Shown here: positions 35,350 to 38,150 of the stretch, piece after piece
Numbering within the stretch: the stretch's first letter is position 1
Layout: each line of letters begins with the position of its first letter
Source: Pseudanabaena sp.
Lineage (GTDB): Bacteria > Cyanobacteriota > Cyanobacteriia > Pseudanabaenales > Pseudanabaenaceae
DNA: 64,000 nt
Assembly: GCA_003249035.1 (NCBI GenBank)
Contig: QBMK01000006.1
Span: 1 to 64,000 of the forward strand
Reading direction: 5' to 3'
Notes under the pieces: model-generated
The model's input: only the letters and a program-made list of their open reading frames with translations
What the model was told of the DNA's origin: nothing
The model's database searches: none
Translations under genes and position numbers: made by a program

Positions 35350-37212
35350 ATGAGTAATTGCCTTTGTCTTGCTTGCGATCGCGCAAACTCAATAACAACC
35401 AAGTTTTGCACTCAATGCGGTGCTAAGTTACAAATTCAAGAGCGTTATCGCGCTTTGAAGGTAATCGGACAGGGGGGATTTGGTAAGACTTTCTTGGCTC
35501 AGGATGAGTCGAAGCCGTCTCAGCCGCGTTGTGTGATTAAGCAATTTGCTTTTGAGACGATCAATCCTAATGCGAGTCAAGGGACTTTGGATGTCGCCAT
35601 CAGGTTATTTGAGCAGGAAGCAAAGCGGCTCGATGATTTGGGTAAACATCCGCAAATTCCTGAACTTCTATCTTTCACAATTCATGAGGGTAAGCAGTAC
35701 CTCATCCAAGAGTTTATCGATGGTGAGACTTTGGAACAGGAACTAGCGCGAGTTGGTGCATTTAGCGAGCAGCAGGTGCGGGATGTGTTGGTGGAGGTGC
35801 TGCAAATCTTGGAGTTTGTGCATAGCAAGTCGGTAATTCATCGCGATATTTCGCCAGACAATATCATTCGGCGGCGCAGCGATCAAAAGTTGGTGCTGGT
35901 AGATTTTGGGGCGGCAAAGCACGCAACGGCGACGTTATTGGCAAAGACGGGGACGGGCATCGGGAAGCCAAGTTATGGCGCTCCTGAGCAAATGTTGGGT
36001 AAGTCGGTGTTTCAGAGCGATTTGTTTGGGTTGGGTGTGACTTGTTTACATTTGCTCACGAATGTGGAACCGTTTACGCTCTACGATGTTTTGGAGAATG
36101 AATATCAATGGCAGCAGTTTTTGAATGGAAAAGTAGTGAGTAATGAGTTTGGGAAGTTGTTGGATCGATTGACTGCTTACAGGGTAAAGGAGAGACCTAA
36201 TTCGGTTACAGATATTTTGCAGGGGTTTAATATTGGGCAAAAAACATCAACTGCTGTTAATAATTCTTCTGGTGCTTATAGTTTTAAAGGCGAAGATTTA
36301 CAGGCAGAACATCGTGTGTCAATTCCTTCTGCAATACCAAATAAGCAAGTAACAAAAACAACTTCTTCAGTTTCAGAATTTAAATTTACATATGTAAAGA
36401 CTCGCATAGTTAGTAGCGGTTTTCTAGGGTTAGGAACTAGAGTTGAGCTAGAGCGTCAACATGCTAAAACTGGATATATTCGTGAGAACTTGGGAAATGG
36501 AGTAACTATAGATTTAGTTCGCATTCCTGCGGGAAAGTTTATGATGGGTAGTAATGAACATGATCGCGGAAAACCAATCCATGAAGTAACTTTGCAAGAG
36601 TTTTGGATGGGGAAATATGTAATGACACAAAAACAATGGCAAGCTGTAATGGGAAATAATCCTGCATATTTCAAAGGCGATAACTTACCAGTAGAGAGAG
36701 TTTCTTGGAGTGATGCGCGAGATTCTTGTGAGAAGGTTTCAAAGTCTACGGGAAAAAACTTTAGGTTGCCAACTGAAGCAGAATGGGAATACGCTTGTCG
36801 CGCTGGAACAAATACATTTTTTCATTTTGGGGAAGTTATTACGCCAGATTTAGTTAATTACGATGGAAAGTCTTCTGACCGTAGCAATTCAGAAAAAGTA
36901 GTATATCGCAAGCATACAGTCAATGTAAATGCTTTTGAACCGAATAAATGGGGAGTATATCAAATGCACGGCAATGTATGGGAATGGTGTTTAGATGATT
37001 GGAATGATGACTATAGTAAGAAGCCATTGCACTTCAAACATCATGGCAACGAATCGTGGGGTAATCTGAATATAAATAAAAATGATGATCGTGATCACAC
37101 TCTGCGTGGTGGCTCTTGGCTCGTCATTGCTAAGGGTTGCCGTTCTGCGAATCGGTACAGAAGCATTGCAGACAATCGCCTCCACACAATTGGCTTTCGT
37201 GTGGTTGTGTAA
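35350..37212 (+). CDS. Ser/Thr protein kinase fused to FGE-sulfatase/SUMF1 domain, with N-terminal zinc ribbon
   Basis: 'CLACDRANSITTKFCTQCGAKL'; 'VIHRDISPDNII...LVDFGAAK'; 'IPAGKFMMGSNEHDRGKPIHEVTL...LPTEAEWEYACRAGT...WEWCLDDW...TLRGGSW...IGFRVVV'. Confidence 0.93.
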   Translation: MSNCLCLACDRANSITTKFCTQCGAKLQIQERYRALKVIGQGGFGKTFLAQDESKPSQPRCVIKQFAFETINPNASQGTLDVAIRLFEQEAKRLDDLGKHPQIPELLSFTIHEGKQYLIQEFIDGETLEQELARVGAFSEQQVRDVLVEVLQILEFVHSKSVIHRDISPDNIIRRRSDQKLVLVDFGAAKHATATLLAKTGTGIGKPSYGAPEQMLGKSVFQSDLFGLGVTCLHLLTNVEPFTLYDVLENEYQWQQFLNGKVVSNEFGKLLDRLTAYRVKERPNSVTDILQGFNIGQKTSTAVNNSSGAYSFKGEDLQAEHRVSIPSAIPNKQVTKTTSSVSEFKFTYVKTRIVSSGFLGLGTRVELERQHAKTGYIRENLGNGVTIDLVRIPAGKFMMGSNEHDRGKPIHEVTLQEFWMGKYVMTQKQWQAVMGNNPAYFKGDNLPVERVSWSDARDSCEKVSKSTGKNFRLPTEAEWEYACRAGTNTFFHFGEVITPDLVNYDGKSSDRSNSEKVVYRKHTVNVNAFEPNKWGVYQMHGNVWEWCLDDWNDDYSKKPLHFKHHGNESWGNLNINKNDDRDHTLRGGSWLVIAKGCRSANRYRSIADNRLHTIGFRVVV

Positions 37213-37260
37213 ATTCTTTTTGCGCGAGGAATTTATTCACCCTTTGCCCATTCTCGTCCT

Positions 37261-37393
37261 AAACCTTCGCAAATCAGCAACAATCCCCAAACCGCAGCGA
37301 TAAGCGATCGGTAACAGCGAAGAGGGTAGAGCATTTGCGTATGGAGATTTTGGTGATAATTTATAGATTGTGACGCAAATGCTCTACCCCTAC
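37261..37393. repeat. REP-like repeat unit 1 upstream of RAYT transposase
   Basis: aaaccttcgcaaatc...ggtagagcatttgcgt...acgcaaatgctctacc; ~255 bp from unit 2. Confidence 0.85.
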
Positions 37394-37441
37394 AAATCTG
37401 TAAATTCAAATATATATTGGGTGATTTTAAAACAATAAAAC

Positions 37442-37515
37442 CCTGTAGGGGCAGAGCATTACCGCCACAATTTTATAAATTCTGCGATCGCCTAAATACG
37501 GTAATGCTCTGCCCT
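37442..37515. repeat. REP-like palindrome between the two units
   Basis: gggcagagcattaccg...cggtaatgctctgccc. Confidence 0.85.
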
Positions 37516-37649
37516 AAACCTTCGCAAATCAACAACAATTCCCAAACCGCAGGGATAATTTATCGGTAACAGTGCACAGGGTAGAGCATTTGCGTATAGA
37601 GATTTCGGTGATAGTTTATAAATTGTGGCGCAAATGCTCTACCCCTACA
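37516..37649. repeat. REP-like repeat unit 2
   Basis: Near-identical to 37261-37393. Confidence 0.85.
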
Positions 37650-38150
37650 TTTTTACGTTTATTCGTTCCTATATCTTACAACCCTGAAATTCATCATCGA
37701 CGCTCTATCCGTCTACAGGGCTATGACTATTCTCAATCAGGAGCCTATTTTGTTACTATCTGCACCTTTCAAAGACAACATTTGTTTGGAGAGGTTAACG
37801 ATGAAAAAATGCAGCTAAATGTTAATGGTCAGATTGTTTCTGCGATTTGGCAACAAATTCCGCGGCATTTCCCTACCGTGGAACTTGATGAATTTATCCT
37901 CATGCCCGATCACCTACATGGAATTATCGTCATTTCAGAACAGGCTGAGCAATCTATTTCATTAGCAACGATCATTCAAAATTTCAAATCTGTTTCTACT
38001 CGCAAAATCAATAAAATCACTCAGAATTCGGGCGTGTCTATCTGGCAACGAAACTATCATGAAAGAATTGTCAGAAGTGATCAAGACTTAGATCGTCTCC
38101 GTCATTATATGTTGGCTAATCCTGAAAACTGGCAGTTTGTTGCTGAATAA
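37572..38150 (+). CDS. REP-associated tyrosine transposase (RAYT, Y1/TnpA-REP family)
   Basis: 'NPEIHHRRSIRLQGYDYSQSGAYFVTICTFQRQHLFGEV...LMPDHLHGIIVI...SIWQRNYHERIVRSDQDLDRLRHYMLANPENW'; conserved part begins ~37674, start codon unclear. Confidence 0.93.
   Translation: MHRVEHLRIEISVIVYKLWRKCSTPTFLRLFVPISYNPEIHHRRSIRLQGYDYSQSGAYFVTICTFQRQHLFGEVNDEKMQLNVNGQIVSAIWQQIPRHFPTVELDEFILMPDHLHGIIVISEQAEQSISLATIIQNFKSVSTRKINKITQNSGVSIWQRNYHERIVRSDQDLDRLRHYMLANPENWQFVAE

Follow-up and report, generated by a model that had tools for sequence, protein, structure and literature searches.

To our knowledge, the literature on diversity-generating retroelements (DGRs), systems that purposely randomize a binding site, is centered on complete elements, and the fate of their targets after loss of the mutator is hardly documented. 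Treponema denticola TvpA, which we take to be the target of a complete DGR, carries its variable region (VR) near the C terminus of an FGE-type CLec fold. In cyanobacteria, DGR proteins that join a kinase to a CLec domain have been described, together with remote targets (Vallota-Eastman et al. 2020, PMC7517822). These remote variable proteins consist of a Ser/Thr kinase and a C-terminal CLec/FGE fold whose VR forms the very 3' end of the gene, are encoded away from the reverse transcriptase (RT), are hypervariable only at codons that hold adenines in the template repeat (TR), and have been linked to a DGR of the same genome. The same study described all3226 of Nostoc sp. PCC 7120, a variable-protein paralogue that lacks a nearby RT but retains remnants of TR-VR homology, and its authors proposed that the diversification components were removed once a good variant had been selected; PCC 7120 retains two DGRs elsewhere in its genome (PMC7517822).

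Here, we describe a kinase gene of Pseudanabaena sp. that resembles the cyanobacterial remote variable proteins in domain order, in the position of the VR, in its distance from any RT, and in hypervariability confined to TR-adenine codons, but differs from them in that its assembly contains no RT or TR and its homing tail has decayed. We consider it highly probable that the 3' end of this gene is an orphaned, frozen former DGR target that has lost its RT and template, and that its protein is still used. Like all3226, it would be a former target without a proximal RT; unlike PCC 7120, with its two DGRs, this genome has none that we could detect, and a comparison of 26 genomes of the genus is at hand. 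An orphaned target already has its precedent in all3226 (PMC7517822), and the parts added here are the genus-wide survey and the swapping of cassettes. The source assembly (G000) comprises 4.55 Mb in 60 contigs and is 95.5% complete, and the window analyzed is the 64,000-nucleotide stretch G000:C57:1-64000. Its relevant features are as follows.

35350..37212, + strand: kinase-FGE fusion gene (620 aa, reading frame intact)
35446..36219, + strand: Hanks-type Ser/Thr kinase domain (Pfam PF00069, Pkinase; aa 33-290)
36511..37206, + strand: FGE-sulfatase/CLec-fold domain of the DGR variable-protein type (PF03781; aa 388-619)
37111..37203, + strand: former DGR variable region (GSW...GFRV), with TR-adenine codons within 37120-37188
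37217..37250, + strand: decayed noncoding VR 3' tail with IMH-like element, 3' of the stop codon (core at 37224-37231, GCGAGGAA)

The Pfam assignments bear out the kinase-FGE fusion proposed in the first-pass annotation of this DNA, and the last 36 residues of the open reading frame are exactly those given there (...LRGGSWLVIAKGCRSANRYRSIADNRLHTIGFRVVV*). The VR occupies the last ~35 codons of the CLec/FGE-fold domain, whose best relative of solved structure in a sequence search is T. denticola variable protein 1 (TvpA; PDB 2y3c, E = 1.8e-20), a protein that shares the fold and VR position but comes from a different phylum and has no kinase fusion.

A catalytic formylglycine-generating enzyme requires two copper-binding active-site cysteines. 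Judged against Cys336 and Cys341, which we take to be these cysteines in human FGE, the motif GGSWLVIAKGC of the kinase gene has a cysteine at just one of the two positions, and its FGE domain would not be expected to act as a catalytic FGE. Two further genes of the same genome, G000:C57:215513 and G000:C22:201115, share the fold and overall framework but carry both motif cysteines (SUMF1-type motif GGSFLCARNYC), which makes them candidates for true formylglycine-generating enzymes.

In sister genomes, the regions surrounding DGR-type RTs were scanned for repeats that mismatch at the adenines of one copy, and clear TR/VR pairs were found at 11 Pseudanabaena loci and at 4 loci in two more distant genomes. 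The pairs of the genus adjoin RTs of ~350-380 aa, their mismatches fall all or nearly all at TR adenines (in most loci, every mismatch does), and their variable proteins also end in an FGE-type domain. Codons 37120-37191 of the kinase gene are in codon register with the genus TRs, with no gaps. Compared with the TR of sister genome G038 (L085), the VR shows 15 differences at adenine positions, all of which change the amino acid, and 12 at other positions, all of them third codon positions and 11 of them silent. The NNC codons that had been read as the trace of randomized AAC codons (CTC, GTC, TAC, AGC, CTC, and CAC) are all present, in a window where NNC codons make up 19.6% of open reading frame codons, and the pattern does exceed chance. 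The third base of the G038 TR is retained at 11 of its 13 AAC/AAT codons, compared with 4.3 expected from an exact calculation using the same amino acids and local codon usage (p = 2.2e-5). Retention gave p values of 2-4e-5 for 5 of 12 TRs, that of G038 included, and weaker values for the least similar TRs; in five ordinary FGE genes, taken from G000 and sister genomes, the third base was retained at 4-6 of 13 codons (p = 0.1-0.7). Likewise, mismatches to the best TR at non-adenine positions numbered 11-12 of 52-54 for the VR versus 20-23 for ordinary FGEs.

The similarity extends past the coding sequence, the 40 nt beyond the stop codon matching the noncoding tail found 3' of active VRs. When the 60 nt past the stop were compared with DGR tails, the score was 40, a value reached by 0 of 3000 dinucleotide shuffles and the highest among 8526 windows across the 64 kb; the tails of five ordinary FGEs scored 14-18. 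Model R1, which describes VR plus tail by sequence alone and was built without the G000 kinase gene, matches 37105-37260, tail included, at 76.8 bits (E = 2.6e-21); elsewhere in this genome it recognizes two ordinary FGEs, at 37 and 32 bits, each in the coding part alone. An IMH-like element lies directly 3' of the VR, as a homologous though decayed tail. Its core reads GCGAGGAA, compared with GTGAGGAC in active VR copies and mostly GTGAGTAC in TRs, and the two altered positions are invariant or nearly so across 22 aligned VRs and TRs. Altered cores are also found in several VRs of RT-positive genomes, and so the change of core alone is no proof of inactivity. At the level of sequence, the TR alignment, the AAY third bases, the 3' tail, and the hypervariability of homologues (see below) establish the 3' end of the gene as a DGR variable region by descent, and to this extent the first-pass annotation was right.

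The machinery that would diversify this region is absent from the assembly. A PF00078 search of the 4.55 Mb gave 0 matches, and six DGR RTs combined into a profile likewise gave no match in the assembly at E <= 10; we regard these searches as valid because both detect DGR RTs in 11 sister genomes. A degenerate pattern of 37111-37209 that allows change only at adenines, run over the whole assembly with up to 3 mismatches, matched only itself, blastn over the assembly found the 3' end of the gene in a single copy, and model R1 found no TR there. Neither of two marks of a complete DGR, an RT of the DGR clade and a TR differing only at adenines, was found in the assembly. The earlier observation that RT and template repeat are missing from the window thus holds across the whole 4.55 Mb, and the genome-wide search proposed along with it found neither in this 95.5%-complete assembly. 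The VR DNA matched no plasmid record, and a scan of genome contigs returned distant FGE relatives alone (36-50% identity) and no nearer strain. When the window was searched by tblastn with 15 DGR RTs for remains of an RT close to the gene, the outcome was just a 28-residue match inside the VR, together with chance matches; the match arises because the RT reading frame of L081 (G018:C135), which appears to span its own TR, passes through that TR.

These searches bear directly on the suggestion of a remote target under present diversification, a part of the earlier proposal that was not supported. A DGR located in the unassembled ~4.5% might go on rewriting the VR in trans. In favor of this are the DGR RTs of 11 among the 26 genus genomes, the remote targets described from cyanobacteria (PMC7517822), and the presence here of both VR and tail. 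We nevertheless judge this quite improbable, and an active VR unlikely, because there is no RT and no second copy or adenine-only TR in 4.55 Mb, because the IMH-like core is altered at two positions, and because the framework differences, 11-12 from the best genus TRs, are almost all silent. This silent drift separates the VR from every TR found in the genus, but it is measured against the TRs of other strains, and a private G000 TR could share the same silent states.

A frozen former target can be pictured as follows. In an ancestor, the adenines of a template RNA would have been randomized during reverse transcription, and homing at the tail directly beyond the stop codon would have placed the resulting cDNA in codons 37120-37191. 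One variant would have been retained at the TR-adenine codons (L-V-I, K-G, Y, S-I, and R-L-H-T). The lineage would then have lost the RT and template and the homing tail would have mutated; the site would therefore be frozen, and the gene would now evolve normally. The head may have been joined to, or exchanged onto, the conserved kinase at this locus, giving a kinase with a fixed, putative ligand- or partner-binding head.

Comparison of strains supports separate histories for the two parts of the gene. Synteny at this locus extends to G040 and G038, with kinase, FGE, RAYT, and PIN genes or domains in common. Between G000 and G040, the kinase is identical at 274 of 291 positions and the FGE domain outside the VR at 141 of 195 (72%), and dS is 0.40 for the kinase versus 1.48 for the FGE domain. 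The FGE head and the kinase therefore have different histories; the same values rule out even divergence of the whole gene. Within the VR, 13 of 15 framework positions are identical between G000 and G040, compared with 0 of 15 TR-adenine codons. G000 and G038 agree at 137 of 195 FGE positions outside the VR (70%) and at 2 of 14 TR-adenine codons, and G040 and G038 at 171 of 195 and 3 of 14, respectively. Hypervariability confined to TR-adenine codons is seen both against the G038 TR and among the syntenic homologues. This concentration is the opposite of the ordinary, mostly synonymous divergence that the first-pass annotation had named as grounds for abandoning its proposal.

Judged from the intact reading frame and from framework changes that are almost all silent, the kinase-sensor protein probably continues to function. 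The contrary view, of a DGR variable protein without any current role whose gene is decaying into a pseudogene, draws on the loss of RT and TR, on the decayed tail, and on the syntenic gene of G038 (L129), whose kinase part is frameshifted near aa 244 so that the fusion is probably broken in that strain. We consider it very improbable for the G000 gene, given its intact 620-aa frame, the silence of 11 of the 12 non-adenine VR differences from the G038 TR, and a dN/dS of ~0.12 (0.172/1.48) for the FGE domain outside the VR compared with G040.

In a tree of FGE domains from which the VR had been removed, the G000 domain grouped with its two syntenic homologues (support 100/99), inside a larger group of DGR-type proteins with moderate support (88/88 and 94/95) and apart from the ordinary FGEs of the same genome. 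That the gene simply carries an ordinary FGE fold, its loops varied by normal selection and its resemblance to a VR due to convergence on the shared fold, is extremely improbable: ordinary FGEs do share the framework GGSW...CRSA.R...GFRV and the 81 nt between anchors, but they lack the third-base signature and the noncoding tail, the latter already contradicting this reading; their orthologues keep 12-13 of 16 residues at the positions corresponding to the codons hypervariable in syntenic VRs; and the G000 domain groups with DGR-type domains.

Recognition of a frozen target through third-base retention, a noncoding tail, and strain comparison, with no RT or TR in the genome, means that genome scans could find DGR footprints invisible to RT-based methods. 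In a profile search of the 26 genus genomes, 11 had a DGR RT of full or nearly full length, 1 (G022) had a fragment of 149 aa, and 14 had none, although some of these 14 are drafts (the least complete at 76% and 82%). VR-plus-tail matches of at least 70 bits to model R1 were found in 12 of the 14 RT-less genomes; 4 of these 12 supplied sequence to R1, so that their scores are partly by construction, and G000 supplied none. The RT-less VR-plus-tail genes span a range from fresh, as in G020:C1:1370749, to decayed, as in the G000 kinase gene. G020:C1:1370749 (L156) shows 0 of 56 non-adenine mismatches to the G022 TR in a genome without a DGR RT, and it is either a fresh orphan or the target of a recently lost DGR. 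In G022 itself (L090, L161, and L164), a TR lies beside the RT, which is truncated to 149 aa, and there are also several fresh VRs. At L107 and L113, and at the R1 matches G038:C1:3693856 and G040:C4:19560, the VR is followed by flanking sequence of the TR type (GTGAGTACTACCAAT..GTCAG or similar), such as might result from a deletion joining the neighborhoods of VR and TR; such a deletion would also stop diversification.

The kinase corresponding to window positions 35350-36507 is syntenic and 94-98% identical in most genus genomes examined (L136, L137, L138, L139, L140, and L141), and what follows it differs. The C-terminal cassettes at this locus include FGE-VR, a GUN4-like cassette (G021), and a DuOB plus DUF559 region (G011), and several of them have the start of the linker in common. 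The kinase locus swaps C-terminal cassettes between strains. We suggest, tentatively and with rather more doubt than conviction, that the DGRs of this genus may act as a transient maturation engine, in which a mutator is gained, the heads of modular kinases and other signaling proteins are diversified, the mutator is repeatedly lost, and the frozen heads are reshuffled onto conserved kinases. If so, the gene in the window would be one endpoint of this process. With the pattern across the genus, the idea that DGRs are temporary affinity-maturation devices for signaling kinases becomes open to test.

Shortly past the decayed DGR tail lies a RAYT-like gene (37572-38150). It is preceded by REP-like inverted repeats of the type GGTAGAGCATTTGCGTA (within 37320-38150), and RAYT fragments recur at the kinase locus in other strains.
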